This document shows positions 1-25,647 of a DNA stretch of 37,622 bases, one piece after another. Origin of the DNA: Frankiaceae bacterium (lineage in GTDB: Bacteria; Actinomycetota; Actinomycetes; JADGOV01); assembly GCA_017882785.1 (NCBI GenBank), contig JADGOV010000018.1:1-37622 (forward strand). The letters are read 5' to 3'. The translations under genes were made by a program, and so were the position numbers. The notes under the pieces are model-generated. The model was not told the DNA's origin, made no database searches, and saw only the letters and a program-made list of their open reading frames with translations. The stretch's first letter is position 1. Each line of letters starts with the position of its first letter.

Positions 1-1137
1 GCGGTGACCAGCGTGGGCGCCAGTGCTCCAGGGGTGGTCACGCGCGTTCAGGAGCAGGTCGCCAGGTTCGCTCATACCTGCTTCCTCGTCACCGAGTACG
101 AGGGCTACGTCGACGTGGCCGATCGGCTCAACGAGCTGACCCCGGGGCAGTTCGCCAAGCGCACCGCCCTGTTCAGCACCGGCGCGGAGGCCCTGGAGAA
201 CGCGGTGAAGATCGCGCGTGCTGCCACGGGTCGTCCCGGGGTGGTCGTGTTCGACCACGCCTATCACGGGCGCACCCTCCTGACGCTGGCGATGACGGCG
301 AAGGAGGTGCCCTACAAGAGCGGCTTCGGTCCGTTCCCGGGGGACGTGCACCGAGCCCCTTTCGCTTACCCGCTGCGCTGGCCGACCGGTCCGGAGAACG
401 CCGCCACTGAGGCTCTGGCCGCGCTCGACGACCTCCTGGGGCGCGTCGGTGCGCACACGATCGCCGCGATCGTCGTGGAGCCGCTGCTGGGTGAGGGCGG
501 GTTTGTCGTACCCGCGCCCGGTTTCCTGCAGGGAGTCCAGCAGGTTGCCAGCCGACACGGCATCGTCTTCATCGCCGACGAGGTCCAAGCCGGGATGGGG
601 CGCACGGGCACGCTGTTCGCCAGCGAGTACGAAGGCCTCGAGCCGGACCTCGTCTGCACAGCCAAAGCACTCGGTGGTGGGTTGCCCTTGGCCGCCGTCA
701 CCGGCCGCGCCGAGATCATGGACGTCGTCCAGCCCGGTGGGTTGGGCGGCACGTACTCCGGCAACCCACTGGCGTGCGCGGCCGCTCTCGGTGTCCTCGA
801 GATGTTCCGGGACGGATCGTTGCTGAAGCGGGCGCAGGCGATCGAGATGCTCGTCCGCGCGCGCCTGGAGCCGCTCGCCGCCGAGCTGTCGACCATCGCT
901 GAGGTCCGCGGCCGCGGCGCCATGCTGGCCGTGGAGTTCGTCCACCCCGGCACACTGGACCCCGCCCCCGAGATCGCGCGCTCCGTGCTCGCACGCTGCC
1001 ACAGCGAGGGGGTGATCACCCTCTTGTGCGGTACCTACGGCAACGTGATCCGACTCCTCCCACCACTGGTGATCCCCCAGGACCTGCTCGAGGACAGTCT
1101 GGACGTCCTCGTCGATGCCATCCGGAGTGCCGGTTGA
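1..1137 (+). CDS. Class III PLP aminotransferase, GabT-like (5' end outside window)
   Basis: This is an omega-amino acid aminotransferase of the 4-aminobutyrate/6-aminohexanoate type, which would move the terminal amino group of an omega-amino acid to a 2-oxo acid and leave a semialdehyde. The reading frame is open from base 1 and begins mid-domain, so roughly 60 N-terminal residues lie upstream; the GTG at 4 is an internal codon. Visible fold-type I features are the GAEALENAVKIAR cofactor-phosphate segment, AYHGRTLLT, the IADEVQ aspartate (codon 577-579) that contacts the pyridine nitrogen, and the Schiff-base lysine in TAKALGGGLPL (codon 664-666). The stretch PYKSGFGPFPGDVHRAP is typical of GabT proteins. 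The stop overlaps the next start (TTGA), so the genes are coupled. Substrate chain length cannot be read from sequence. Confidence 0.93.
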   Translation, partial: AVTSVGASAPGVVTRVQEQVARFAHTCFLVTEYEGYVDVADRLNELTPGQFAKRTALFSTGAEALENAVKIARAATGRPGVVVFDHAYHGRTLLTLAMTAKEVPYKSGFGPFPGDVHRAPFAYPLRWPTGPENAATEALAALDDLLGRVGAHTIAAIVVEPLLGEGGFVVPAPGFLQGVQQVASRHGIVFIADEVQAGMGRTGTLFASEYEGLEPDLVCTAKALGGGLPLAAVTGRAEIMDVVQPGGLGGTYSGNPLACAAALGVLEMFRDGSLLKRAQAIEMLVRARLEPLAAELSTIAEVRGRGAMLAVEFVHPGTLDPAPEIARSVLARCHSEGVITLLCGTYGNVIRLLPPLVIPQDLLEDSLDVLVDAIRSAG

Positions 1138-2663
1138 GCACCGCAACGGCAACGGTGAGCAGTCCCAGCCGCGATCCCCGTACCGGTGCGACCCACCCGG
1201 GCCCGGCCGATACCCCACCCGAGCGGGTCACCGCGCTGGTCGAGGCGGCCGCCGCAGCCGCGCCAGCGGTCGCCGCAACCAGCCCTGTCAACCGCGAGCG
1301 TTGGCTCGTCGCGCTGGCCGAAGCGTTCGAATCCACTGCCGCCCGCCTTGTCGAACTCGCCGACGCCGAGACCGCGCTGGGCCTGGAGCGCCTGGGCGGC
1401 GAGCTGGGCAAGACTGCTGCCCAGGCCCGGTTCTACGGGGCGGTGACTGCCGAGGGCAGCTGGCTGTCCGCGCGCCTGGACCGCGTGGCCGGGAACGCGC
1501 CGGTGGACCTGCGCCGCGCGAACCTGCCGGTGGGTCCCGTCGCTGTCTTCGGAGCGAGTAACTTCCCCTTCAGCTTCGGCGTCGCCGGCCACGACACACT
1601 GTCCGCGCTGGCCGCGGGCTGTCCGGTTCTGGTCAAGGCACACCCGGCGCATCCCCGACTGAGCCTGCGGATCGGACAGCTCGTTGCCGCGACCCTCGCG
1701 GACGTCGGCGCTCCGGCCGGAGCGTTCGGACTCGTCGTTGGCTTCCAGGCTGGCCTGGCGCTTGTCGACGCACCCCAGATGCGCACCGTGGCCTTCACCG
1801 GCTCGCAAGCCGGCGGAACGGCGCTGGTCCAGCGGGCGGGGGCGCGGCCAGACCCGATCCCGGTCTTCGCGGAGATGGGTACTGTCAACCCGGCAGTCGT
1901 GACGCCCGCCGCGGCGCAGGCTGACCTTGCCGGCATCGCCGAGGGGTTCCTCGCCTCCTTCACCCTCGGTCAGGGCCAGTTCTGCACCAAGCCGGGGCTG
2001 CTCCTAACCCCCAGGGGCGCCGGAGCGGCCAACGCGGTCGCCTCGGCGCTCTCTGCTGTCCCGCCGGGATGGTCGCTGACGGAGCGCATTGCCGCGGGCT
2101 ACCACGATGGCCTGCGGGCGCTCGTATCCGCGGGCGCCCGACTCGTCGGGGAGGGGTGCCGGGCGGAGGCCGGGTTCGCCGTGGCACCGACCGTCCTCAG
2201 TGCCGACCTCGATGACCTCCAGCCCGGTTCACGGCTCCTCGAAGAGTGCTTCGGCCCGGTCGCGCTCGTCTTCGAGTACGACGACCTGGTTCAGCTGCGT
2301 GCTGCGCTCGGACGCCTGCAGCCCAGCCTTGCTGCTGCCGTGGCTACCGCCGGGCCGGACGACCCCGACACGGGGTGGCTCGTGGCCCAGCTCTCGACCC
2401 GGGTCGGCCGCGTCGTGGTGGACGGCTGGCCCACGGGGGTAGCGACGTCCTGGAGCCAGCAGCACGGCGGCCCATGGCCGGCCGCGAGCCGACAGGACGC
2501 GACGAGTGTCGGCGCCGCCGCACTGGACCGTTTCACCCGCCCGGTGGCCTTCCAAGACGTGCCCGAGTCGGCGCTGCCGGCGGCCCTGCGCAACGACAAC
2601 CCGTGGGGTCTGCCGCGCCGCGTCGACGGCGTCCTGCAGCCTCCGAAGGGCGTTGGTCCGTGA
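1134..2663 (+). CDS. NAD(P)+ aldehyde dehydrogenase, 2,5-dioxovalerate (KGSA) dehydrogenase type
   Basis: The protein (509 aa) oxidises a semialdehyde to the matching carboxylate, probably the product of the upstream aminotransferase. I chose the TTG at 1134 because it overlaps the previous stop as TTGA and has GGAG six bases upstream; a GTG at 1155 is the alternative. Aldehyde dehydrogenase residues are present: Asn143 in GASNFPFSFG, Glu247 in FAEMGTVNP and the nucleophile Cys284 in GQFCTKPG. The GASNFPFSF and GQGQFCTKPG wording and the length fit the alpha-ketoglutaric-semialdehyde dehydrogenase subfamily. In this context glutarate or adipate semialdehyde is an equally reasonable substrate (inference). 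The stop overlaps the CoA-transferase start as GTGA. Confidence 0.93.
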   Translation: MSTATATVSSPSRDPRTGATHPGPADTPPERVTALVEAAAAAAPAVAATSPVNRERWLVALAEAFESTAARLVELADAETALGLERLGGELGKTAAQARFYGAVTAEGSWLSARLDRVAGNAPVDLRRANLPVGPVAVFGASNFPFSFGVAGHDTLSALAAGCPVLVKAHPAHPRLSLRIGQLVAATLADVGAPAGAFGLVVGFQAGLALVDAPQMRTVAFTGSQAGGTALVQRAGARPDPIPVFAEMGTVNPAVVTPAAAQADLAGIAEGFLASFTLGQGQFCTKPGLLLTPRGAGAANAVASALSAVPPGWSLTERIAAGYHDGLRALVSAGARLVGEGCRAEAGFAVAPTVLSADLDDLQPGSRLLEECFGPVALVFEYDDLVQLRAALGRLQPSLAAAVATAGPDDPDTGWLVAQLSTRVGRVVVDGWPTGVATSWSQQHGGPWPAASRQDATSVGAAALDRFTRPVAFQDVPESALPAALRNDNPWGLPRRVDGVLQPPKGVGP

Positions 2664-3844
2664 GCCGTCCGCTCGACGGGGTCCTCGTCGCCGACTTCAG
2701 CCGGGTGCTCGCCGGCCCACTGGCCACGATGACCCTGGCCGACCTCGGCGCCACAGTCATCAAGGTCGAGCGGCCGGGCCTCGGCGACGACACCCGGACC
2801 TGGGGGCCACCCTGGTCAGGCGACTCGGCGACGTACTTCCAGTCCGTCAACCGCTCCAAGCGCAGCATCACCCTCGACCTGTTCGACCCGGCCGACCGTG
2901 GGGCGGCGATCGAGCTGGCCCGACGCGCCGACGTCCTCGTCGAGAACTTCAAGCCGGGCAGCCTCGAGCGCCACGGACTCGGCTACGGCCAGGTCGCGGC
3001 GATCAACCCGACGGTTATCTACTGCTCCATCACCGGCTTCGGGAGCGGGGCCGGCGCGGACCGCCTGGGCTACGACTTCGTCGCCCAGGCAGTGGGCGGC
3101 CTCATGAGCATCACGGGAGAGAAGGCCGGCGAGCCGACCAAGGCGGGCGTCGCGGTCGTCGACGTGCTCACCGGCAAGGACGCCACCATCGGCATCCTGG
3201 CGGCACTGAGCGACCGACAGCGCAGTGGTCGCGGCTGCCGGATCGAGGTCAATCTGCTCTCGAGTCTGCTGGCATCGCTGGTCAACCAGGCCCAGGGCTT
3301 CCTCGAGACCGGCACAGTGCCCGGACGCCTGGGCAACCAGCACCCCTCGATCGCGCCCTACGAGACGCTGCGCTCCCGTGACGGCCTGATCGTGGTCGCC
3401 TGCGGCAACGATCCTCAGTTTGCCCGGCTCGTCGCGGTCCTGGGCCGGCCTGAACTCGCACAGGACGAGCGCTTGAGCACCAACGCCGCCCGGGTCGGCA
3501 ACCGGCAGGTGCTGATCGACGTCCTCGAGGAGCTCCTGGCCGCAGCAGACTCGGCAACCTGGGAGGATCGCCTCAACGCCGCCGACGTCCCGGCTGGCAG
3601 GGTCGGCGACATCGCCGACGCCTTCGCCCTGGCCGAACGGCTCGGATTGGAGCCCACGTGGCCGGGCACGGCGGGGGGGCCTCCCCAGGTCCGCCACCCG
3701 GTGACGTACTCCAATGATCTCGTGCGTCCACCCGAGCCGCCGCCGACTCTCGGCGCGGACCAGGCCGTCATCCGCGCCTGGTTGTCCGAACCCCACGGGT
3801 TTCCGCCCACCCCTGCTGCCCCTGCTGGAGAGGTCCTCTCATGA
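2660..3844 (+). CDS. Class III CoA-transferase (CaiB/BaiF family)
   Basis: The protein (394 aa) is a family III CoA-transferase, which exchanges CoA between acyl-CoA esters and free acids through an aspartyl-CoA thioester. The start GTG at 2660 overlaps the preceding stop and has GAAGGG nine bases upstream. The N-terminus LDGVLVADFSRVLAGP, the LGATVIKVERP segment, VENFKPG and GYDFVAQAVGGLM are family hallmarks, and Asp168 in VVDVLTG is at the position of the catalytic aspartate. In the operon it follows a transaminase and an aldehyde dehydrogenase. A plausible role is therefore activation of the dicarboxylate (glutarate or adipate) for beta-oxidation, which is inference. The 3' end runs into the next ORF as ATGA. 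Confidence 0.92.
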   Translation: MSRPLDGVLVADFSRVLAGPLATMTLADLGATVIKVERPGLGDDTRTWGPPWSGDSATYFQSVNRSKRSITLDLFDPADRGAAIELARRADVLVENFKPGSLERHGLGYGQVAAINPTVIYCSITGFGSGAGADRLGYDFVAQAVGGLMSITGEKAGEPTKAGVAVVDVLTGKDATIGILAALSDRQRSGRGCRIEVNLLSSLLASLVNQAQGFLETGTVPGRLGNQHPSIAPYETLRSRDGLIVVACGNDPQFARLVAVLGRPELAQDERLSTNAARVGNRQVLIDVLEELLAAADSATWEDRLNAADVPAGRVGDIADAFALAERLGLEPTWPGTAGGPPQVRHPVTYSNDLVRPPEPPPTLGADQAVIRAWLSEPHGFPPTPAAPAGEVLS

Positions 3845-3942
3845 CGAACGCCCGGGGTAACCTCCACGTCGGGATGAGCGCGGCATGCCTGCCTTCGGGG
3901 GATCACGAACAGCCGGCACGGCTGACCGCATACAGACCGTGA
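3841..3942 (+). CDS. Small coupled ORF, 33 aa, unknown
   Basis: This ORF starts with an ATGA overlap on the CoA-transferase stop and has a strong ribosome site, GGAGAGG at 3827-3833, seven bases before its ATG. It encodes only 33 residues, starting MTNARGNLHVGM and ending ARLTAYRP, with no recognised motif. It is in the same frame as the hydrolase that starts 19 bases after its stop. Such a good start signal followed by so short a frame suggests either a true small protein or the stump of a deleted operon gene. I cannot tell which. Confidence 0.35.
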   Translation: MTNARGNLHVGMSAACLPSGDHEQPARLTAYRP

Positions 3943-3960
3943 CGTAGGAGACGCCTCCGC

Positions 3961-5211
3961 ATGCAGCAGGACGAGACCGGCCATGCACGGCACCAGGGCG
4001 CAGCGGGGCCCTTCCCGCCAGAGTCGCCGGCCACCGTGGGGAACTGGCAGGACCCGCCGCATCATCGTTGGGCGTTCCTGCACATGCGGGAGGTGCTGCT
4101 CAGCCAGCTCATCGCAGCCGAGCCGGCCACCACACTGGCGCTCCCCGAGGCTCAGCAGCCGGTGGGGAGCGTCGAGCTCACCCGACTCGACGGCTCGATC
4201 GGCACGCTCGATGAGGTGCTCGCCGACACATGCACCGATGCCTTTCTCATGCTGCACAACGGCCGGGTCATCGAGGAGCGCTACTCGGCTGGGATGACTC
4301 GCCACAGCCGGCACCTCGTTATGTCCGTCTCCAAGTCGATCGTCGGCTGCGTCGCCGGGTGCCTCGTCGAGCGGAGGCTCATCGACGAGGGTGCCGATGT
4401 CAGCAAGTACGTACCGGAGGCCACCGCGTCCGGTTACAACGGGGCGACAGTCCGCAACCTGCTGGACATGCGCACGGGGGTGGCCTTCCGTGAGACGTAC
4501 ACCGACATCGACGCCGAGGTCCGCGTCATGGAACGGTCGATGGGGTGGCGACCGATGGAGCAGGGCGACCCGGTGGGTGCCTATGCCTACCTGACCACGC
4601 TGGGTACCGCGGGTCCTCACGGCGGGAGGTTCACCTACCGCTCCGCCGACACGGACATGCTGGGTTGGGTGTGCGAGCGAGCCGCAGGAACGCGCATGGC
4701 GGAGCTCATCTCCGGCTCCATCTGGGCGCCCATGGGTGCTGAGTTCGACGCCGAGATCACCTGCGACTCGGTCGGCACGGCGATCCACGACGGCGGCATC
4801 TCAGCCACGGTCCGCGACCTCGGCCGGTTCGGACAGATGCTGCTCGAGGACGGACTGGCCGGAGGCCGGCGCGTCGTGCCCAGCCGCTGGCTCGCCGAGT
4901 CCCATCACCCTGGGAGTGACGTGCGGGAGGCATTCGCCGCATCTCCTGACGAGGCCGTCCTGCCGGGAGCGTGGTACCGCAACCAGTTCTGGTTCATCCC
5001 CGGCCGCAACGGGGTCAACCTCGTCTGCCTCGGCATCCACGGCCAGATGGTGCACGTCAATCCGGCGACCCGAACGGTGACGGTGAAACTCAGCACATGG
5101 CCGGACGCACAGAACCTCGCGCACCTGATCGACACGCTGCGTGCGTGTGCGGCGGCGGGGGCGTACCTCGCCGAGCGGGACGACCACCCGGTGACGTCCA
5201 CAGCGGGCTGA
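3961..5211 (+). CDS. NylB-like serine hydrolase (6-aminohexanoate-dimer hydrolase family)
   Basis: This 416-aa cytosolic enzyme has the class C beta-lactamase/DD-peptidase fold and would cleave a linear amide. Ser122-x-x-Lys125 lies in MSVSKSIVG, the tyrosine base is Tyr226 in FTYRSADTD, and the third box is His360 in GIHGQMVHV. From memory of NylB of nylon-oligomer-degrading Arthrobacter, the match runs end to end: WQDPPHHRWAF, the catalytic block, ETYTD with Tyr180 at the place of NylB Tyr170, an acidic Glu191 at the place of Asp181, GGISATVRDLGR, and VTVKLSTWPD near the C-terminus. There is no signal peptide. GGAG lies ten bases before the ATG. It follows three coupled genes for omega-amino acid breakdown, which supports an amide-hydrolase role. 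An esterase on another substrate remains possible. Confidence 0.88.
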   Translation: MQQDETGHARHQGAAGPFPPESPATVGNWQDPPHHRWAFLHMREVLLSQLIAAEPATTLALPEAQQPVGSVELTRLDGSIGTLDEVLADTCTDAFLMLHNGRVIEERYSAGMTRHSRHLVMSVSKSIVGCVAGCLVERRLIDEGADVSKYVPEATASGYNGATVRNLLDMRTGVAFRETYTDIDAEVRVMERSMGWRPMEQGDPVGAYAYLTTLGTAGPHGGRFTYRSADTDMLGWVCERAAGTRMAELISGSIWAPMGAEFDAEITCDSVGTAIHDGGISATVRDLGRFGQMLLEDGLAGGRRVVPSRWLAESHHPGSDVREAFAASPDEAVLPGAWYRNQFWFIPGRNGVNLVCLGIHGQMVHVNPATRTVTVKLSTWPDAQNLAHLIDTLRACAAAGAYLAERDDHPVTSTAG

Positions 5212-5224
5212 GTTGAATGGGGAT

Positions 5225-5287
5225 CGCCGATCATGCTGAAAGGCGCGTTCTGGGGTCAGCGGGACCTCAGTTGAAGCATGATCGGCG
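5225..5287. repeat. Inverted repeat, 13-bp perfect arms
   Basis: CGCCGATCATGCT at 5225-5237 is the exact reverse complement of AGCATGATCGGCG at 5275-5287, with a 37-base loop that contains a smaller GGTC/GACC hairpin. It lies just after the hydrolase stop. No T-run follows, so it is not a classical intrinsic terminator, though it could still act as a transcript end or operator. The core AGCATGATCGGCGC recurs in the inverted repeat at 20616-20671. Confidence 0.7.
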
Positions 5288-5341
5288 CTGCGCGGCAAAC
5301 AGACTCGACTCAGGTCGCTTGCGTCTCCTCGGTTGCGACTA

Positions 5342-5370
5342 TTGTCATGGCTCGTCACGATTTGTAATTC
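5342..5370 (+). promoter_or_regulatory. Promoter for the permease gene
   Basis: TTGTCA (5342-5347) and TAATTC (5365-5370) are separated by 17 bases, a good housekeeping-type match, and end 33 bases before the permease ATG. The permease can therefore be transcribed separately from the upstream operon. Confidence 0.55.
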
Positions 5371-5403
5371 ACTGGAAATGCCGGCCAGGTATCTTGCCGG
5401 CGC

Positions 5404-7281
5404 ATGGAGACGCCGCCTCAGGGCTCAGGTAGTCAGCTGCACAAGGATCTCAGGCAACGGCACCTGAGCATGATCGCAATCGGGGGCGTCATAGGCGCCG
5501 GTCTGTTCGTCGGGTCGGGCGTGGTTATCAACACCGTCGGCCCGGGGGCGTTCCTCTCCTACGCGGCGACCGGCGTACTCATTGTCATGGTCATGCGGAT
5601 GTTGGGCGAGATGGCGACGGCGAACCCCTCGACCGGGTCATTCGTCGAGTACGCCCGGCAGACACTGGGCGGCTGGGCCGGCTTCTCCGTCGCCTGGCTC
5701 TACTGGTATTTCTGGGTGATTGTCATCGGGTTCGAAGCGGTAGCCGGTGCCGGCATCTTGCAGCTCTGGCTGCCGCATGTCCCCCTGTGGGTCATGTCGC
5801 TGGTGCTGCTACTCCTCATGACAGCGACGAATATGTACTCCGTCCGCTCCTACGGAGAGTTCGAGTTCTGGTTCGCGTCCATCAAGGTCCTCGCCATCTG
5901 TGTGTTCCTGGTGTGTGGCTCGCTGTTCGTCCTCGGCCTGTGGCCGGGACGCGCCCTGGACTTTTCCAACCTGACCGCGCATGGCGGCTTCTTCCCGAAG
6001 GGGGCCGGCGCGATCTTCTCCAGCGTCGTCATCGTGATCTTCTCGATGGTCGGCGCGGAGATCGCCACCATCGCCGCCGCCGAGTCGGCCGAACCCGAGC
6101 GGGCCATCGCCAAGGCGACGAACTCGGTGGTCATCAGGATTTCGATCTTCTTTGTCGGCTCGCTGTTCCTGCTTGCCGTGATCCTGCCGTGGAACTCGAC
6201 GAAACTTGGCTCCTCGCCCTACGTCAGCGCCTTCCAGGAAATGGGCATCAGCGGGGCTGCGGACATCATGAACGCGGTGGTGCTCACCGCCGTCCTGTCG
6301 TGTCTCAACTCCGGGCTCTACACCTCCTCCCGCATGCTCTTCGTCCTGGCCGCCGACGGCGAAGCCCCCCGTCGCCTGCTGGCGGTCAATCGACGGGGGG
6401 TGCCGGTGGCCGCGATACTCACCTCGACGATCGTCGGCTACGCCTGCGTCGTCGCCGCGTACGTCTCGCCGAAGACCGTCTTCCTCTTCCTGTTGAACTC
6501 CTCCGGCGCCATCATCTTGTTCGTCTACCTGCTGATCTGCGTGTCTCAGCTGGTCATGCGCCGGACCCTGCCGCCGGAGCGGCTGCGGGTCAAGATGTGG
6601 TTCTACCCGGTCCTCACACTGCTCACCATCGCCGCCATGGTGGCCGTCCTGGTCTCGATGGGGGTACGCAGCGACACCCGGTCGCAGCTGTTGCTCAGCT
6701 TCCTCGCCTGGGGGGTCGTGCTCAGCGCGTACTTCATCCTCCGCCGCCGCCCTCGAGTGATCACTCTCCCGGAGGTCGCCGTGGCGGGCGGTGCAGGTGC
6801 CGCGGCGTACGGCGACTCCTCGCCCGGGACGGCGGCTCTCGGCCCGGTCTCGCGGGTACTCGTGGTCGCCAACGAGACTGTGCAGGCCACGGCGCTGCTC
6901 ACCGAGCTGCGCGGACTGCACGATGAGCACTCCGCGCGGTATTTCGTGTGCGTACCGGCCCGCCCCCTGCACTCCGGTCAGGGTGCGGTGTGGGCTCCGG
7001 ACACCGCGGTGACGGCGGCCGAGCGCCGCCTTGAGACCACGCTCGGGATCTTGCGCGGTGCGGGGCTTGTGGTGGAGGGCGAGATCGGGGACTACCGGCC
7101 CATGCACGCGATGGACCGAGCGGTCGCGGAATTCCGGCCCGACCTCATCGTGATCTCCACCCACCCCGAGGCGCGGTCCGCCTGGCTGCGCCAGAACATC
7201 GTCGAGCAGGCGAGGAGGAAATACCCGGTTCCGGTCCGGCACGTCGTCTCGGTGGTGCCCGAGGTGATCTTCGGGACCTGA
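5404..7281 (+). CDS. APC-family amino acid permease (GabP-like) with C-terminal soluble domain
   Basis: This 625-aa proton-coupled amino acid transporter sits in the plasma membrane. The first 460 residues or so hold about 12 membrane segments. The N-terminal LRQRHLSMIAIGGVIGAGLFVGSG is the APC/AAT signature, and the overall pattern resembles GABA permeases. After the last helix (SAYFILRRRPR) comes a low-complexity Gly/Ala linker and a cytosolic domain of about 150 residues (SRVLVVANETVQATALL ... DLIVISTHPEARSAWLRQN), which looks like a universal-stress-protein or nucleotide-binding fold. That domain may gate transport (inference). The position next to the aminotransferase operon and NylB-like gene suggests uptake of omega-amino acids. 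A convincing Shine-Dalgarno sequence is lacking; the start is set by family N-termini. Confidence 0.9.
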   Translation: METPPQGSGSQLHKDLRQRHLSMIAIGGVIGAGLFVGSGVVINTVGPGAFLSYAATGVLIVMVMRMLGEMATANPSTGSFVEYARQTLGGWAGFSVAWLYWYFWVIVIGFEAVAGAGILQLWLPHVPLWVMSLVLLLLMTATNMYSVRSYGEFEFWFASIKVLAICVFLVCGSLFVLGLWPGRALDFSNLTAHGGFFPKGAGAIFSSVVIVIFSMVGAEIATIAAAESAEPERAIAKATNSVVIRISIFFVGSLFLLAVILPWNSTKLGSSPYVSAFQEMGISGAADIMNAVVLTAVLSCLNSGLYTSSRMLFVLAADGEAPRRLLAVNRRGVPVAAILTSTIVGYACVVAAYVSPKTVFLFLLNSSGAIILFVYLLICVSQLVMRRTLPPERLRVKMWFYPVLTLLTIAAMVAVLVSMGVRSDTRSQLLLSFLAWGVVLSAYFILRRRPRVITLPEVAVAGGAGAAAYGDSSPGTAALGPVSRVLVVANETVQATALLTELRGLHDEHSARYFVCVPARPLHSGQGAVWAPDTAVTAAERRLETTLGILRGAGLVVEGEIGDYRPMHAMDRAVAEFRPDLIVISTHPEARSAWLRQNIVEQARRKYPVPVRHVVSVVPEVIFGT

Positions 7282-7593: not shown

Positions 7594-8262
7594 ATGACGA
7601 TAATCAGTGGCGCCCTAGGGTTGCCGCGCAACAAGCGCCCGAGGTGGCTCACCGGAAGCATGGCGCTGGCCGGCCTGGTCGCCGGGGCTCTGCTGACGGG
7701 CTGCTCGACACCGCACCTTGCGGACATGAGCCCACAGGTCACGAACAAGGCGGAGGCCGCAGCTCCGAAGACGACATCGGTCGCCAAGACCGCCACGATC
7801 GTCAAGCCCAAGGTCAGGCCGACAGGCGACCTCGCCAAGGGGTCGCTTGTACGCAAGCTCGACGCCGGGGCGCTCTCACTGGTCGTGAACTACTGGTCCG
7901 ACCAGGATCCGGCCACGTGGTCCGCTGACAAGGCGGTCGTCCTGCGGTTGTCGGCGCACCTGGAGCGCAAGGGTGTCATCTCCCCCACCGCCGTGCCGGT
8001 CAAGATTTCGCGCTTCTGGGTGACGCTGGACGACGGCACGTCGGTCGCGACCCTGGTTGATGACCGTGGCGAGTTCGTCATCACCCCGCCGTATTCCTAC
8101 GGCAGCGCGCTCACTATCCGGCCCGCCAACAAGACGGTCACATCCGCCATCATGTCCGTGGAATTCGACCTCCTGATTGAAACCACGCCTACATCGAAGG
8201 CGTACTTCCGCCAGACGGTGCTCGACACCGTCAACCTGCACTTCGTCAAGAACGGATCATAG
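7594..8262 (+). CDS. Predicted lipoprotein, unknown function
   Basis: The 222-aa product has a lipoprotein signal: positively charged RNKRPRW, a hydrophobic stretch, and the lipobox LLTGC with Cys37. It should therefore be exported and anchored to the outer face of the membrane. A lysine/alanine/threonine-rich spacer (about residues 45-80) leads to a domain with alternating hydrophobic residues (LSLVVNYW, VKISRFWVTLDDG, FVITPPYSYGSALTI) that suggests a beta-sandwich. I do not recognise a family. The stop lies two bases before the glycosyltransferase start, so the two are one transcription unit and may work together on a cell-surface polymer. Confidence 0.75.
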   Translation: MTIISGALGLPRNKRPRWLTGSMALAGLVAGALLTGCSTPHLADMSPQVTNKAEAAAPKTTSVAKTATIVKPKVRPTGDLAKGSLVRKLDAGALSLVVNYWSDQDPATWSADKAVVLRLSAHLERKGVISPTAVPVKISRFWVTLDDGTSVATLVDDRGEFVITPPYSYGSALTIRPANKTVTSAIMSVEFDLLIETTPTSKAYFRQTVLDTVNLHFVKNGS

Positions 8263-8264
8263 TA

Positions 8265-9785
8265 ATGACCGACATGCTGATTGCCCGGACCACTCCCGGG
8301 AATGTCCAGACCGTCACCAGTCTCGCAGCCCGTACTGCGCCCCACCGTGCGGCGCTACGCGCAAGGGTCGCCGTGGCCAAGAACGCCTTGGTGGGTCCGC
8401 CCGTGCCCGCCCCTCGCAACGAAGAGGCAGCGGAAGTCGAGCGGCACGCGACCATCGCCTGCATCATCCCGGCTTACAACGAAGAGCACACGATCGCGAG
8501 CGTCATGCAGTCGCTGCTGACCCAGACCCGCCCGCCGGACGTGATCCACGTGATCGTCAACAACACCGACGACAACACGCTGGAGGTGCTCAAGCCATTC
8601 CTCGGACGCCACACCCGGGTGGTCAAGGGCATCACGTACCGACCGGTCGTACAGGTCCACGACATGGGCCAGAACGCCGACAAGAAGGTGGGTGCGCTGA
8701 ACTACGGCTACCGACTCGCCCGGAGCTATGACTACATCCTTGGTGTCGATGGCGACACCACTCTCGACAGCCACGCTGTGGAGTACCTGGAGCTGGAGAT
8801 GGTGGACGACCCGCGCATCGGCGGACTGTCGGCCATCTACTCGATCGACAAGTCCACGATCAAGGGTGGAATGGCGAAGTTCCTGGTCGCCGGCCAGCGT
8901 GCCCAGTTTGCCGCCTTCAACCTCGACAACCTGCTGCACGGTCGCAACATGGCTGTGCTCGGTGGTCAGTGCTCGCTGTTCTCCGTGCCCGCCCTGGAGG
9001 CGGTCATGGTCAAGCATCACCAGCGTTCCCCGTGGGTCCGTGACTCCGAAGTCGAGGACAGCCTACTGTCGCTGCAGATCAAGGACGCCGGATTCAGCAC
9101 CAAGATCAGCTCGAGGGCTCGTGCCTTCGTCGGCCCGATGACTGACCTTCGTGCCCTGCACGGCCAACAAGTCAAGTGGACCTACGGCAGCATCGACCTA
9201 CTATGGCCGGGCCAGCGTGGCGACACCAAGGGCCAGCCCACGCACCCGAACCTTCGGCTGCGCTGGTTCGAGAACGTGTCGATGGTCTTCAACATCGCCA
9301 CCCGGATGGCGTTCCTGCTCCTGCTGTTCGCGGCGCTGAGCATCCACGCCTTCATCTTCAACCCAGTCTGGCTGATCCCGCCGGCCGTGGCTGTCGGGCT
9401 GAACCTGCGGATGGCACTGGCCATGCACGACAAGTCCAAGTCTGACATCGGCTACGCGCTCGGTGTCATTCCGGCCGAAGCGTACATGTGGATCCGGATG
9501 GGTCACTTCATGACCTCGTGGGCCCAGTTCTTCTCTCGCGTCGAGAAGGACAACTGGGCAGCCCAGGCAAGTGCCGAGAAGGGCAAGGGCAAGGCCTACA
9601 TCTTCCCGGCCATCGTGGCAGCCACCACGTTCGGCATCCTCATCTTCGCCTGGGGCCAGCAGTCGGTGGGTGTCCAGTCAGCGATCTTGTCCCTGGGATG
9701 GCCGATCCTGTACCTCATCACGATCACCCAGACCCTGTTCATGATCAGGAAGTTCATCCGCAGGCAGCGCGGCTTCACCGTCTGA
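8265..9785 (+). CDS. Processive family 2 glycosyltransferase, membrane-bound
   Basis: The 506-aa inner-membrane enzyme would polymerise or transfer sugars from a nucleotide-sugar donor. The GT-A domain begins at about residue 62 (ACIIPAYNEE). Donor and metal motifs are Asp162-Gly-Asp164 in GVDGDTT, the catalytic Glu264-Asp265 in EVEDSLLSL, and QQVKW (301-305), a variant of the QxxRW motif of processive synthases such as chitin, hyaluronan and poly-GlcNAc synthases. About four membrane helices follow (residues 345-500). The N-terminal 60 residues are Arg/Ala-rich and probably cytosolic. It is coupled to the upstream lipoprotein gene. An extracellular polysaccharide role is inference from the motif set; the sugar is unknown. 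Confidence 0.85.
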   Translation: MTDMLIARTTPGNVQTVTSLAARTAPHRAALRARVAVAKNALVGPPVPAPRNEEAAEVERHATIACIIPAYNEEHTIASVMQSLLTQTRPPDVIHVIVNNTDDNTLEVLKPFLGRHTRVVKGITYRPVVQVHDMGQNADKKVGALNYGYRLARSYDYILGVDGDTTLDSHAVEYLELEMVDDPRIGGLSAIYSIDKSTIKGGMAKFLVAGQRAQFAAFNLDNLLHGRNMAVLGGQCSLFSVPALEAVMVKHHQRSPWVRDSEVEDSLLSLQIKDAGFSTKISSRARAFVGPMTDLRALHGQQVKWTYGSIDLLWPGQRGDTKGQPTHPNLRLRWFENVSMVFNIATRMAFLLLLFAALSIHAFIFNPVWLIPPAVAVGLNLRMALAMHDKSKSDIGYALGVIPAEAYMWIRMGHFMTSWAQFFSRVEKDNWAAQASAEKGKGKAYIFPAIVAATTFGILIFAWGQQSVGVQSAILSLGWPILYLITITQTLFMIRKFIRRQRGFTV

Positions 9786-14027: not shown

Positions 14028-14792
14028 CTACCGGGGGCGCTGGCCGGTGTCGCTCGGCGGGGCCACGCCGGTGTCGACCACGTCCTGGGCGACCTCGCGG
14101 AGCTTGACGTTGAGGTGTTGTGAGGCGCGGCGCAGAAGGTCGAAAGCCTGGTCAGCGGTGATGCGTTCGCGCTCGATGAGGATGCCCTGGGCCTGACCGA
14201 TGACCTCTCGGGATGCGAGAGCCTGGCGCAGGTGCTCGGCTTGGTCGTGGTCGGCGGCACGGGTCTGGGTGACGGCGAGGGCAGGTCCGGCGTGCGCGGC
14301 GAAGATCAACCCTTTGGCGCGGTCGGTCGCGCCGAAGGCGGCGGGGAGGGCGGCGTAGAGGTTCAAAGCGCCCACGGTCTCGGCTCCGGCAGACAGCCGG
14401 TAGGCGAGCACGCTGCGGACGCCGCCGGCCACCGCGCGCGGCCCGAACCGTGGCCATCTGGGCTCGTCGGCCAGGTCGTGGGCGTAGACACTGTTCAGAC
14501 CGCCGAGAGCGTCCAGACAGGGTCCCTCTCCGGCATCCCGCTGGAGTTGGTCGATGTCGGTGACGAGCGCTGCGGTGCGCAGCGGGGTGCGCGGCACGGG
14601 CTCGGGCAGCATGATGCCGGCGAAGTCGCACCCGTCGATGGTGTCCACCGCCAGGGCGACGACCCGTCGAAGAACCTCGGCCACCGTAGGCGCGGAAAGC
14701 AGACTCCGGGCAATCGCTGCAAACCGGGTCGCCAGGTCGCCCTCGGCGTCCTCGATGGCGACTGGCATGGCGACTGGATTGCCGTGGTCCAC
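14028..14792 (-). CDS. GAF-ANTAR domain protein (RNA-binding antiterminator type)
   Basis: The 254-aa protein senses a signal through a GAF domain (about residues 25-175, with CDFAGIMLPEP, EGPCLDAL and WPRFGPRAVAGGVRSVLAYRL). A C-terminal ANTAR domain (about 185-240: LRQALASREVIGQAQG, ITADQAFDLLRRASQHLN) binds transcript hairpins to prevent termination. I chose the GTG at 14792 because GGAGAGG lies six bases upstream; a longer open frame continues to 14951 without a comparable site. It is divergent from a second GAF-ANTAR gene 116 bases away, so the two are probably co-regulated. The first GAF strand is short. Confidence 0.88.
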   Translation of the reverse strand: MDHGNPVAMPVAIEDAEGDLATRFAAIARSLLSAPTVAEVLRRVVALAVDTIDGCDFAGIMLPEPVPRTPLRTAALVTDIDQLQRDAGEGPCLDALGGLNSVYAHDLADEPRWPRFGPRAVAGGVRSVLAYRLSAGAETVGALNLYAALPAAFGATDRAKGLIFAAHAGPALAVTQTRAADHDQAEHLRQALASREVIGQAQGILIERERITADQAFDLLRRASQHLNVKLREVAQDVVDTGVAPPSDTGQRPR

Positions 14793-14908
14793 CCGAAGCC
14801 TCTCCGCCCTGTCGGCTGCCCGATCAAAGAGTAGAATACGGGTGCCTTCTACAGCGAGGGTTCGTCCTCGGCGCGGGCTGACCCCCCGTCTTCGTAGGTA
14901 GGTTCGAG

Positions 14909-16336
14909 ATGCAGTCGAATAGCGCCTCGCCGTACTCACATGGCGACTCATCTTCGGGGGCGGTTCTCGTCGTACTCGAGGATGAGACCGGGGCCGTGGT
15001 GGCCGTCCGCGGTCAGGTCGACCCGGTCACCGACATCGCCGGTGCCGGGGTCACGACCCCGGCTGCAACGCCGGATGCCCGGCGTGGGGTCGTGCTGCGC
15101 TTTCCCTCCGAGCTGACCCACCTGGTCTCTACGATCACCGCGCTCACCGCCGTCCCCGAAGCGGCAAGCAATCGCCTCGGGTCGACGGCTCGCTCCCGGG
15201 CCGCGGGGCCCTCCATGGTCGTGACCCGCCCTGTGCTCGACGCGGCGCTCTCTTTCGTCGTGACACTGGCGAAGGCCGCCGTGGTCGGCGCCGACGGGGT
15301 GAGCATCACCCTTCGACGTCACGGCCGCCTGGACACGGTAGCGGCGAGCGACGATGTCGTGGTCGAGATGGATCGGGAGCAATACGACGGCGGTGAGGGG
15401 CCCGCTCTGGACGCCACCGACGGTCGGCGGGTGCACGTCAAGTCCCTCGACGGGGAAACCCGGTGGCCGGTCTTCGTCCCCAAGGCCAGGGCCCGCGGGG
15501 TTCGGACCATCCTGTCCACCCCGATGGTGACGGCCGACCGTCCGATCGGGGCGCTGAACGTGTACGCCCGGACAGCGGTGTCCTTCACCCGGGAGGAGGC
15601 TGGATGGGCGGAACTGTTCGCCGCCGAGGCGGCGGCGGTGGTTGCCGCCGCCGGACCGGACGAGCCGGACGAGCCGGGGGGTCAGCGGCTCCGAGAGGCG
15701 TTGCAGGCTCGGGAGGCGATAGCCCAGGCGCAAGGCGTGATCATGCACCGGGACCGCGTTTCGGCGTACGCCGCGTACGAGGTGCTGCGCGACACGAGCC
15801 GCCGGACCCACCTGCCGTTGCGCGACGTTGCCGCAGAGTTCGTGGCCTCGACCCGGGACGGGGCCGCGGCGCGGGTCGATTCGACCGGAAAGGAAGGCGC
15901 GAGCGGGCACCCCGAGGAGATAGCCGTCGGCTCTGCCGTCCGGATGGCGGCCTTCCTGACGGACGTCGTTCGGTCGGCACCGCCTACGCTGGAATCGTCA
16001 CCACGACAGCCCGACGGCACGATCTACCTCACACTGGCCGGTGACTGGACCGGGGGCGCTGCCGATACGCTGCGCCCACTGGTCGACCGTGTCCGCCGGC
16101 ACCGGCCGACGCTGGTCATTGCCGAGTTGTCCGAGGTCGGTGTGATGGACTCGGCCGGTGTCGACGCGCTGGTCGCGGCCTCGGAAAGCCTCCTGCGGGC
16201 AGGGGGACGTCTCGAACTGCACAACCCGTCGCCTCCTGTCCGGTCGCTGTTGGACAGCACCGATCTGGCTCAGGTGGTCAGGATGGCTGGCGCCACATCC
16301 GCAAGGGGGGGCACCGATGCTGGGCCAGCCGACTGA
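14909..16336 (+). CDS. GAF-ANTAR-STAS fusion regulator
   Basis: The 475-aa protein joins three modules. After a weakly conserved N-terminus (1-95) comes a GAF domain (about 100-245: ADGVSITLRRHGRL, EGPALDATDG, TRWPVFVPKARARGVRTIL). An ANTAR domain follows (about 258-312: LREALQAREAIAQAQG, RVSAYAAYEVLRDTSRRTH), then a STAS domain (about 365-465: IYLTLAGDWTGGAADTL, then VGVMDSAGVDALVAA). Ser415 in the MDSAG turn is the residue phosphorylated in anti-sigma-factor antagonists. The protein could therefore link RNA antitermination to a partner-switching kinase pathway (inference). The stop overlaps the next ORF by 20 bases. It lies divergent from the other ANTAR gene. Confidence 0.88.
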   Translation: MQSNSASPYSHGDSSSGAVLVVLEDETGAVVAVRGQVDPVTDIAGAGVTTPAATPDARRGVVLRFPSELTHLVSTITALTAVPEAASNRLGSTARSRAAGPSMVVTRPVLDAALSFVVTLAKAAVVGADGVSITLRRHGRLDTVAASDDVVVEMDREQYDGGEGPALDATDGRRVHVKSLDGETRWPVFVPKARARGVRTILSTPMVTADRPIGALNVYARTAVSFTREEAGWAELFAAEAAAVVAAAGPDEPDEPGGQRLREALQAREAIAQAQGVIMHRDRVSAYAAYEVLRDTSRRTHLPLRDVAAEFVASTRDGAAARVDSTGKEGASGHPEEIAVGSAVRMAAFLTDVVRSAPPTLESSPRQPDGTIYLTLAGDWTGGAADTLRPLVDRVRRHRPTLVIAELSEVGVMDSAGVDALVAASESLLRAGGRLELHNPSPPVRSLLDSTDLAQVVRMAGATSARGGTDAGPAD

Positions 16337-19334: not shown

Positions 19335-20621
19335 TCACATCCCGTCCGAGGGGCGGACGCAGGCTGCTGCCCGCTCGCGCAGCAGGGTGAGCTCAGGTGC
19401 ACTGTGAGTGAGCGCTGCCGCCCTTTCGAATTCGAGCCGGGCCTCCTCGATGCGCCCAAGCCGAGCCAGCAGGTCCCCCCGCACGCTCGGCAACCAGTGG
19501 TAGCCCTTCAGCGCCGGGACCGAGGTCAACGCGTCGACGAGATCGAGGCCGGCCTGCGGACCGAACGCCATCGAGAGGGCGACCGCGTGGTTCAACTCGA
19601 CGACAGGCGACGGGGCCAGTTGGGCGAGCGCGTCATAGAGGCCGCGATCCGCACCCAGTCGGTCTCCGCGGGCGTGCGCGCCCGGGCGTGACAGGCGGCG
19701 ATCGCGGCCTGCAGGGCGTACGGGCCGAGCCCACTGCCGAGCCCCTCAGCCCGCTCCAGCGCGGCGAGGCCTCGACGGACGAGGACGTGGTCCCACCGCC
19801 CCCGGTCCTGGTCGAGCAGCAGGATCGGCTCTCCCGTCGGGCCGACCCGAGCCCGCAACCTCGATGCCTGAATCTCCATCAGGGCGATGAGACCGTGTAC
19901 CTCGGGCTCCTTCGGCGCAAGCCCGGCCAGTATCCGGCCGAGGCGAAGCGCCTCCCCGCACAACGCCGGCCGCAACCAGTCGTCACCGGCCGTTGCTGAG
20001 TAACCCTCGTTGAACACCAGATAGACGACGCCGAGCACAGCGGACAGCCGCGCTGCGAGTTCCGCTCCCCGCGGCACCTCGAAGGGCACCCGAGCCTCGG
20101 CGAGGGGCCGCTTGGCTCGCACGATCCGCTGTGCGACGGTCGACACGGGGACGAGGAACGCCCGCGCGATCTCCTGAGTGGTCAAACCGCCGAGCAGGCG
20201 GAGCGACAGGGCGACGCGGGCCTCCGTGGAGAGCACCGGGTGACTGGAGATGAACACGAGGCGCAGCAGGTCGTCGCCGATGTCGTCGCCCACGGCGGTA
20301 TCCATCATCGGATCGACCGACTGCTGTGCGGTCTCCAGTGCGCGGCCGAGCTCGGCTTGCTTGCGCTCGAGGAGCGTTCTCCGGCGCAGCGCGTCGATCG
20401 CCCGCCCGACGTTTCGCGACGGCCATCAGCCAGGCGCCTGGGTTCTCCGGTACGCCCGAGTCCGGCCACTGCTCCAACGCGGCGACGAGGGCGTCCTGCG
20501 CGAGGTCTTCGGCCAGCCCGACGTCGCGCACGACCCGGGCGACCCCGGCGATCACCCTGGCCGACTCGATCCGCCAGACCGCGTCGATCACGTTCGAACG
20601 TACGTTGGGTTCGCGGATCAT
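19335..20621 (-). pseudogene. ECF42-type sigma factor with C-terminal TPR-like domain, two frameshifts
   Basis: Three frames in series give a full-length protein of about 425 residues. The first holds the sigma-2 region: VIDAVWRIESARVIAGVARV, GLAEDLAQDALVAALEQWP and ENPGAWLMAVAKRRA. The second holds sigma-4 and the first part of the extension: DDLLRLVFISSHPVLS, LSLRLLGGLTTQEIARAF, VYLVFNEGYSATAGDDW and YALQAAIAACHARAR. The third holds LYDALAQLAPSPVVELNHAV, GYHWLPSVRGDLLARLG and EARLEFERAAALTHSA. A four-base GGGC duplication near 20399-20409 and a one-base loss near 19640-19644 break the frames. The ATG at 20621 is the likely original start. The domain set is that of COG4941/ECF42 sigma factors, which partner with DGPF proteins. 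It cannot be made as one chain unless the frameshifts are sequencing errors. Confidence 0.75.
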
Positions 20622-20671
20622 GCTCGAACGTACCTTCCGCAGGTCAATGGGACGTTCGTTCGAGCATGATC
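20616..20671. repeat. Inverted repeat, 15-bp perfect arms
   Basis: GATCATGCTCGAACG (20616-20630) is the reverse complement of CGTTCGAGCATGATC (20657-20671), separated by 26 bases. The left arm contains the start codon of the broken sigma-factor gene (ATG, minus strand, at 20621). The right arm continues as AGCATGATCGGCGC (20663-20676), which is identical to 5275-5288. Confidence 0.7.
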
Positions 20672-20672
20672 G

Positions 20673-20741
20673 GCGCAGCACTTCGCCCCCAGGCCGGGTC
20701 TGCGGCCGGCCGGCCCAGCGCAGCATTTCGCCCCCAGGCCG
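20673..20741. repeat. Direct repeat pair, 24 bp, one mismatch
   Basis: The unit starting GCGCAGCAcTTCGCCCCCAG at 20673-20696 recurs at 20718-20741 with a single C/T difference, offset by 45 bases. It fills the space between the DGPF and sigma-factor pseudogenes, where intact loci usually have a very short gap. The origin is unknown; it may be tandem duplication or debris of a small mobile repeat. Confidence 0.65.
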
Positions 20742-24133: not shown

Positions 24134-24175
24134 GTGGTCGTCGCCATGAGCGACCTACCGGAGAGGCGTGTATGA
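24134..24175 (+). CDS. Possible 13-aa leader peptide ahead of the ATP-grasp gene
   Basis: TACCGT at 24120-24125 could be a -10 box placing a leaderless GTG at 24134. The frame reads VVVAMSDLPERRV and its stop overlaps the ATP-grasp ATG (ATGA at 24172-24175). The ribosome site of the ATP-grasp gene lies within this frame. The -35 is poor, so this is a weak call. It would couple translation of the two frames. Confidence 0.2.
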   Translation: MVVAMSDLPERRV

Positions 24176-25647
24176 ACCTGTCGGTCTCAGCCCCACGTCC
24201 CACTCTGCACGGGATTTCCGCGATCCGGTCGTATCTGCGAATGAACACCTCGCCCGTCTTCTTCATCGGGCCGACCGCGTTCAACCTGCTCGGCCTTGAT
24301 CGCTGGGTGCGCAACTTCTTCTACGTCTCCTACTACGACTGCTGGGACGGCGCGCACCCGCGGGTGTTCGCACCGACGACCAAGCCCTACGTCGAGTTCA
24401 CGAGCAGCGAGGACATCAACAACTACCTGCTGCGGGACGCGGAGGTGCAGCGGTTCATCGCCAGCAAGGATGGACGCCCGAGAGTGGCGATGGTCTTCCT
24501 CGACGAGGAGACGGAACGAATCTGCGCCGAGCTCGGCTATCAGCTCATCCTGCCGCCCGATGCGCTCCGTCGCCGTCTCGACTCGAAGATCGTGACAACC
24601 GTGCTGGGCAACGAGGCCGGCGCACCGAGCGTACCCAACGTCCTCGGAAGGGCTGAAAGCTATCAGGAACTGATCGCGCTCTCCACTGCGCACGGTCTCG
24701 GGTCCGACCTCGTCGTCCAGATGCCGTACGGCGACTCCGGGAAGACCACGTTCTTCATCGCCGAAGAGACGGACTGGGCGGCGTACGCCGAGGAAATCGT
24801 CGGCGAGGACCTGAAGGTCATGAAGCGCATCAACAACCGAGCCGCCGCCGTGGAGGCGGTGATCACGCGGAACGGCACGATCGTGGGGCCGTTCATGACC
24901 GATCTCACCGGCTATCCCGAGCTCACGCCCTACCCGGGCGGCTGGTGTGGGAACGACCTGTACCCGGACGCACTGAGCGAGAAGCAGCGCGGCCGGGCCA
25001 TTGAAGTGGTCCGCCGGCTGGGGGGGCGACTCGCGCAGGAGGGGTACCTGGGCTTCTTCGAGGTTGACGTCCTCGTCGACCTCGACACCGACGAAACCTA
25101 TCTCGGCGAGTTGAACCCGCGGATCTCCGGTGCGTCGTCGATGACGAACGTGACCGCGGGCGCGTACGCCGACATCCCGCTGTTCCTCTTCCACCTCCTC
25201 GAGTACATGGATGTCAACCTCGACGTGGACATCGACGAGATCAATGAGCGATGGAAGGAACTCGCAGCGGTCGATGTCTGGAGCCAGCTGATCATGAAAG
25301 AGCCGGCGGACCTCATCGAGCGAATCCACGCTGCCCCCGGTACCGGCACCTATCACCTCCATGACGACGGCCGGCTGTCCTTCGTCCGGACTTCGCTGGA
25401 CTGGCATCAGATCGCCAGCGAGGACGAGTGCTTCTTCCTGCGGGTCTACGGCCCGGGTGACTACCTGTTCAAAGGAGCCGATCTCGGAATCCTCGTGACC
25501 AAGGGCCGTCTGCAGACCGATGATGGACAGCTGACCGAGCGGTGCCGCCAGTTCATTGCGGGCATCCGCTCCCACTACATCACCGGGCCTATCGGTGAAG
25601 CCGACCTGCCCGCGCCGATCTCGCACATCAGCGCCTCGGGATACTGA
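24172..25647 (+). CDS. ATP-grasp domain carboxylate-amine/thiol ligase-like protein
   Basis: The 491-aa soluble protein has an ATP-grasp fold, which uses ATP to make an acyl-phosphate and join it to a nucleophile. Visible parts are an N-terminal FFIGPTAFNLLGLDRW segment, LVVQMPYGDSGKTTFFI (glycine-rich ATP loop), and the magnesium-binding GYLGFFEVDVLVD followed by TYLGELNPRISGASSMTN. The ELNPR glutamate and asparagine are the usual metal ligands. The carboxylase-like C-terminal part includes DWHQIASEDECFFLRVYGPG. There is no biotin-carboxylase partner nearby, so a substrate cannot be named. GGAGAGG sits five bases before the ATG. It is monocistronic as far as visible. Confidence 0.85.
   Translation: MNLSVSAPRPTLHGISAIRSYLRMNTSPVFFIGPTAFNLLGLDRWVRNFFYVSYYDCWDGAHPRVFAPTTKPYVEFTSSEDINNYLLRDAEVQRFIASKDGRPRVAMVFLDEETERICAELGYQLILPPDALRRRLDSKIVTTVLGNEAGAPSVPNVLGRAESYQELIALSTAHGLGSDLVVQMPYGDSGKTTFFIAEETDWAAYAEEIVGEDLKVMKRINNRAAAVEAVITRNGTIVGPFMTDLTGYPELTPYPGGWCGNDLYPDALSEKQRGRAIEVVRRLGGRLAQEGYLGFFEVDVLVDLDTDETYLGELNPRISGASSMTNVTAGAYADIPLFLFHLLEYMDVNLDVDIDEINERWKELAAVDVWSQLIMKEPADLIERIHAAPGTGTYHLHDDGRLSFVRTSLDWHQIASEDECFFLRVYGPGDYLFKGADLGILVTKGRLQTDDGQLTERCRQFIAGIRSHYITGPIGEADLPAPISHISASGY

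Follow-up and report, generated by a model that had tools for sequence, protein, structure and literature searches.

What does the gene set at the start of this contig break down, and does its nylonase-like hydrolase act in the same pathway as its neighbours? The window, by which we mean the whole stretch of 37,622 nucleotides that was analysed, begins at base 1 of contig C117 in an assembly of 3.2 Mb (230 contigs, 99% complete) from a Frankiaceae bacterium. Its first 7281 bases had been read, from the sequence alone, as a coupled gene set for degrading an omega-amino acid or its oligoamide, resembling a nylon-oligomer pathway but possibly serving a natural substrate. Pfam E-values of 2.6e-30 to 2.3e-125, far above chance, confirmed that the five plus-strand genes of that reading are real and lie where it had placed them.

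1-1137, +: class III aminotransferase, GabT/DavT-like (PF00202, 365 bits; GabT structures 3q8n and 4ffc), with its N-terminus on contig C173
1134-2663, +: aldehyde dehydrogenase (PF00171), predicted glutarate-semialdehyde dehydrogenase, whose TTG start overlaps the aminotransferase stop
2660-3844, +: class III CoA-transferase, SUGCT/GcoT-like (PF02515, 384 bits), predicted glutarate CoA-transferase
3961-5211, +: NylB-like serine hydrolase (1wyc, 269 bits; catalytic S122, K125, Y180 and Y226)
5404-7281, +: GabP-like amino acid permease with a C-terminal soluble extension (PF00324, 419 bits; TIGR01773, 561 bits against a cut-off of 678)

Organisation and identity of the genes

Contig C117 begins inside the aminotransferase gene, which is therefore 5'-truncated in the window and lacks its first residues. 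Extending the contig upstream, as the sequence-only reading had proposed, recovered them. Contig C173, retrieved with the PucR-type regulator of a relative as query, carries the missing N-terminus in its first 250 bases. Read in reverse, their translation closes with '...VDLASG', after which two bases of a further codon remain; the translation of the window opens with 'AVTSVG', and the Humibacillus (L010) aminotransferase reads 'VDLASGIAVTSVG' across the same junction. We infer from this homology that C173 and C117 adjoin. Divergent from the operon on C173 lies a gene for a PucR-family regulator (PF07905 and PF13556).

The description of the five genes as coupled held for part of the set. The aminotransferase and dehydrogenase genes overlap by four bases (TTGA, 1134-1137), as do the dehydrogenase and CoA-transferase genes (GTGA, 2660-2663). 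The CoA-transferase stop and the hydrolase start are 116 bp apart, with a likely ribosome-binding site before the hydrolase gene, and 192 bp separate the hydrolase stop from the permease start, a gap that holds a palindromic repeat found genome-wide; tight coupling is thus limited to the first three genes. The repeat spans about 65 bp (CGCCGATCATGCT...AGCATGATCGGCG), with window copies at 5218-5296 and 20607-20679 and 24 matches across the genome; its arms hardly vary among them, unlike its centre.

The permease was GabP-like, as had been proposed. By eye, its approximately 150 extra C-terminal residues resemble a UspA-like soluble domain, and the permeases of two related loci (L014 and L017) are similarly long. 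Beyond it, a c-di-GMP-II-GAG riboswitch (RF03169; 7442-7555, +; 44.3 bits against a cut-off of 40) immediately precedes two genes, one lipoprotein-like (7594-8262) and one for a family 2 glycosyltransferase (8265-9785), an arrangement that suggests c-di-GMP control of surface polysaccharide. Two divergent, overlapping genes at 14028-16336 encode products that look, by eye, like GAF-ANTAR regulators.

The protein families assigned earlier to the first three genes were right, but the dehydrogenase is of another type than GabD or NylE. Its best PDB matches were 1EYY (291 bits) and 3V4C (276 bits), with succinate-semialdehyde dehydrogenases (SSADH) at about 56 bits, and the PDB and NCBIfam comparisons together ruled out a GabD- or NylE-type enzyme in favour of the 1EYY/3V4C type. 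Among NCBIfam models the aminotransferase scored best against those for GABA transaminase, a GabT-like identity that, judged by homology, leaves the chain length of the substrate unfixed. The CoA-transferase is closest to the succinate-glutarate (SUGCT/GcoT) group. Its PDB relatives are 4ed9 and 9br7 (SUGCT), and it scored 336 bits against NF052585 (succinate-glutarate CoA-transferase), under the 750-bit cut-off; the NCBIfam scores fall under the equivalog cut-offs. Homology to SUGCT (succinate-hydroxymethylglutarate CoA-transferase; 9br6, 9br7) is near full-length at about 298 bits, whereas the window protein is bacterial and sits in an omega-amino acid operon.

Chain length of the omega-amino acid

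In Pseudomonas putida, 5-aminovalerate is converted to glutaryl-CoA, and degraded further, through davT, davD, gcoT and gcdH; CoA-transferase together with glutaryl-CoA dehydrogenase is the known second half of this catabolism (PMC6667623). We retrieved 72 loci that encode hydrolase relatives and searched their neighbouring genes. A glutaryl-CoA dehydrogenase gene lay directly 3' of the CoA-transferase gene in L110/L014, L111, L112/L043 and L113, and in L110, L111 and L113 this pair was preceded by a dehydrogenase of the window type. In Humibacillus (L010) the glutaryl-CoA dehydrogenase gene was located elsewhere in the same cluster. The best PDB matches of the enzyme from the relatives were 3sf6 (575 bits) and 3swo (548 bits), and it was present in 12 of the 13 genomes with related clusters.

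The window co-locates a class III aminotransferase, an aldehyde dehydrogenase and a SUGCT/GcoT-type CoA-transferase, as in the DavT-DavD-GcoT pathway. Since a CoA-transferase of this type and glutaryl-CoA dehydrogenase occur next to the same genes in the relatives, we take a 5-aminovalerate/glutarate module, a kind already known, to be the most likely reading of the three-gene operon, and the C5 chain length would extend to this organism. The aminotransferase would then convert 5-aminovalerate to glutarate semialdehyde, the dehydrogenase would oxidise this to glutarate, and the CoA-transferase would yield glutaryl-CoA. Omega-amino acid catabolism, the broader part of the sequence-only reading, is thus supported. 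The presence of a CoA-transferase, which that reading had contrasted with known nylon-6 oligomer degraders, is not unexpected, because the enzyme and glutaryl-CoA dehydrogenase were already known together from 5-aminovalerate catabolism (PMC6667623) and the relatives carry both.

A search of the window's own genome (99% complete) for glutaryl-CoA dehydrogenase found none, the best match being 40% identical and lacking the YEGTxxxH signature (YEGTTQV, against YEGTPEMH in the reference), and upstream of the aminotransferase on the adjoining C173 only the PucR-type regulator and then unrelated genes were present. CsiD, which provides an alternative glutarate route, was likewise sought in this genome and not found. 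An acyl-CoA dehydrogenase on contig C201 (L082) was rejected as a candidate because its motif is YEGTTQV. With neither glutaryl-CoA dehydrogenase nor CsiD, the end of the C5 route is unaccounted for in this genome. The assembly may have missed the glutaryl-CoA dehydrogenase gene, the organism may have lost it, or its operon may handle another chain length.

The operon could in that last case serve C6 (6-aminohexanoate via adipyl-CoA to beta-oxidation) or C4 (GABA to succinyl-CoA), with the hydrolase cleaving the corresponding oligomers or acyl-amides in line with the sequence-only reading. We consider this unlikely. It would fit a genome that has ordinary acyl-CoA dehydrogenases and no recognisable glutaryl-CoA dehydrogenase, as well as the GABA transaminase scores of the aminotransferase and the position of NylB as the nearest solved relative of the hydrolase. 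Yet relatives of the same operon do carry glutaryl-CoA dehydrogenase, conversion of GABA to succinate needs no CoA-transferase, and the hydrolase lies outside the NylB branch. A further point against this reading is a separate locus on contig C44 (L109, G000:C44:17000-31000), where a second GabT lies near a SpuC-like aminotransferase and an aldehyde dehydrogenase. This locus is probably the putrescine/GABA route of the organism, and because of it the window operon would not be the sole GABA route in the genome. L109 also holds a saccharopine-dehydrogenase-like gene (the aldehyde dehydrogenase and saccharopine names were assigned partly by eye).

The hydrolase and its ATP-grasp partner

The hydrolase shares its fold with the 6-aminohexanoate-dimer hydrolase NylB/EII (EC 3.5.1.46), and the best matches of its structure model (pLDDT 92.8) were NylB structures, at 38-39% identity. 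In the residue map, S122, K125, Y180 and Y226 are equivalent to NylB Ser112, Lys115, Tyr170 and Tyr215, and they are invariant in 40 relatives. E191 and D277 occupy NylB positions 181 and 266, where NylB has Asp and Asn. Glu at position 181 is shared by all sequences of the window's own group, and Asp at position 266 by almost all of them. According to structure titles in the fold search, G181D and H266N are the engineered positions of the NylB' scaffold. These substitutions raise 6-aminohexanoate-dimer hydrolysis. NylB has been described as very narrow in specificity (PMC9966071).

Comparison with characterised NylB, as had been suggested, thus showed all four catalytic residues kept, but NylB, to which the window hydrolase is about 38% identical, fell outside its clade. 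In the maximum-likelihood tree it was placed outside a 42-sequence clade containing the window hydrolase, with support of 97/95, NylB itself being a long branch. A natural rather than man-made substrate is supported; the comparison with nylon-oligomer degradation is not. With the hydrolase outside the NylB branch and glutaryl-CoA dehydrogenase carried by relatives, we rejected a nylon-6 oligomer pathway as the main reading. The plasmid copy of NylB (pOAD2) was sought in the plasmid collection and not found. Plasmid relatives of the hydrolase in Arthrobacter and Rhizobiaceae lie in other contexts (urate genes; an ABC transporter with an amidase), without an ATP-grasp annotation.

The strongest genomic partner of the hydrolase was a protein absent from the sequence-only reading, encoded 19 kb away on the same contig.

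24172-25647, +: ATP-grasp protein, a probable member of NF005096/PRK06524 ('biotin carboxylase'); present once in the genome and sharing 70% identity with its Humibacillus (L010) counterpart

Thirty relatives of the hydrolase were at least 50% identical to it and had 5 kb or more of sequence on either side; in 28 of these the ATP-grasp gene lay within 10 kb, and in 26 the distance was 2 kb or less. Of the 12 relatives below 40% identity, none had it within 10 kb. Across 297 genomes of the class, the ATP-grasp gene was found in 15 and the hydrolase gene in 24, and 11 had both where 1.2 were expected (hypergeometric P ~9e-11, a value that ignores relatedness), nine of these 11 with the two genes adjacent. 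By tree and synteny, the window hydrolase belongs to a clade of its own, linked with an uncharacterised ATP-grasp protein. In the open-access literature we found no report linking NylB with an ATP-grasp protein or an amine oxidase.

The proteins of L039 and L010 scored 752 and 732 against NF005096 (cut-off 684), and the window protein is linked to them by its identity to that of L010. It matched no Pfam model at E <= 0.01. A fold search with its structure model (pLDDT 88.9) gave no preference among biotin carboxylase, PurK and L-amino acid ligase, and such modelling does not settle whether the protein is a carboxylate-amine ligase or a carboxylase. It has a conserved E-x-N-P-R motif, which we take to be more ligase-like than biotin-carboxylase-like. 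About 1.7 kb from its gene lies one for a PLP-dependent decarboxylase (PF00282; 20994-22418, -), which is not a conserved neighbour elsewhere and could be an amine supplier.

In 21 of 71 loci, most of them mycobacterial and the others from Kribbella, Nocardioides and further lineages, a copper amine oxidase was encoded no more than 10 kb away; PF01179 was confirmed for L068. A single cluster, L021, brings together an amine oxidase, aldehyde dehydrogenases, the ATP-grasp protein, two hydrolases, an aminotransferase, a CoA-transferase, glutaryl-CoA dehydrogenase and a PucR regulator. No copper amine oxidase was found in the window's own genome, where any diamine oxidation step is unaccounted for; this organism could oxidise its amine by other means or receive it already as an amide.

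The pair might also act apart from the operon, as a make-and-break cycle for a cellular amide used in storage, protection or signalling, its place beside the operon being due to chance or to general nitrogen metabolism. Consistent with this, several mycobacterial genomes have a two-gene pair of ATP-grasp and NylB-A genes without omega-amino acid genes nearby. Moreover, in three genomes without a close NylB match (L105, L106 and L107) the ATP-grasp gene is directly beside that of a C45 (AAT-type) hydrolase, and an amidase gene, named by eye, lies close. However, across separate lineages and gene arrangements the surroundings of the pair repeatedly include genes for aminotransferase, CoA-transferase, glutaryl-CoA dehydrogenase, GabP, PucR and amine oxidase, and we regard an independent cycle as improbable. 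The beta-lactamase-fold family has many carboxylesterases among its members, and the hydrolase might accordingly be an unspecialised family VIII-type esterase with no specific amine link. This seems very improbable, since the esterases that appeared in the fold search (EstB, Est-Y29 and EstG) scored much lower than NylB, and the clade conserves catalytic Y180 and Y226 as well as the acidic residues and the synteny with ATP-grasp.

A proposed amide route and its relation to known systems

The explanation we consider best, at somewhat below an even chance, combines a C5 operon with amide supply through the hydrolase and the ATP-grasp protein. The 19 kb that separate the genes of these two proteins in the window's own genome speak against it. 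The divergent PucR-type regulator would control the operon and the GabP-like permease would feed it with substrate, while the NylB-like hydrolase would release the omega-amino acid by cleaving its amide. We infer that the flow runs from ligase to hydrolase: the amide would most likely not be a nylon oligomer but an intermediate of diamine (cadaverine) breakdown in protected form, made inside the cell by the putative ATP-grasp ligase. One amine of the diamine would be acylated, the other end oxidised to the acid, the amide cleaved and the freed amine transaminated. Because the putative ligase stands beside interchangeable amide hydrolases together with amine oxidase, aldehyde dehydrogenase and aminotransferase, the pair may work in amine catabolism by a logic akin to gamma-glutamylation.

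We tentatively suggest, while rating it as doubtful, that this constitutes a second, so far unrecognised amide-protected diamine route in Actinomycetota, with an ATP-grasp ligase in place of PuuA and NylB-like or C45 hydrolases in place of PuuD. If true, NylB-type nylonases would descend from a family cleaving amides of diamine-derived omega-amino acids. As far as we found, the natural role of nylonase relatives is not settled, and the near-constant ATP-grasp pairing of this NylB-like clade, together with its location in amine catabolism clusters, offers a concrete two-protein hypothesis for it and is a caution against annotating such genes as nylon degraders.

The operon resembles DavT-DavD-GcoT-GcdH of Pseudomonas in its aminotransferase, semialdehyde dehydrogenase and glutarate CoA-transferase steps, and in its relatives through the adjacent glutaryl-CoA dehydrogenase. 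It differs from the davT-davD/gcdH-gcoT arrangement in that its genes form one overlapping operon, its dehydrogenase is of another subfamily, its regulator is of the PucR type, and glutaryl-CoA dehydrogenase was not found in its genome. With the gamma-glutamylation of putrescine and cadaverine by the Puu/Pau systems, the likeness concerns the proposed logic alone: ATP-dependent amide formation, oxidation of the free amine, amide hydrolysis and transamination. The parts would be different, with a putative ATP-grasp ligase for the glutamine-synthetase-like PuuA/PauA, a copper amine oxidase for the flavin oxidase, and a NylB-like or C45 hydrolase for the PuuD type.
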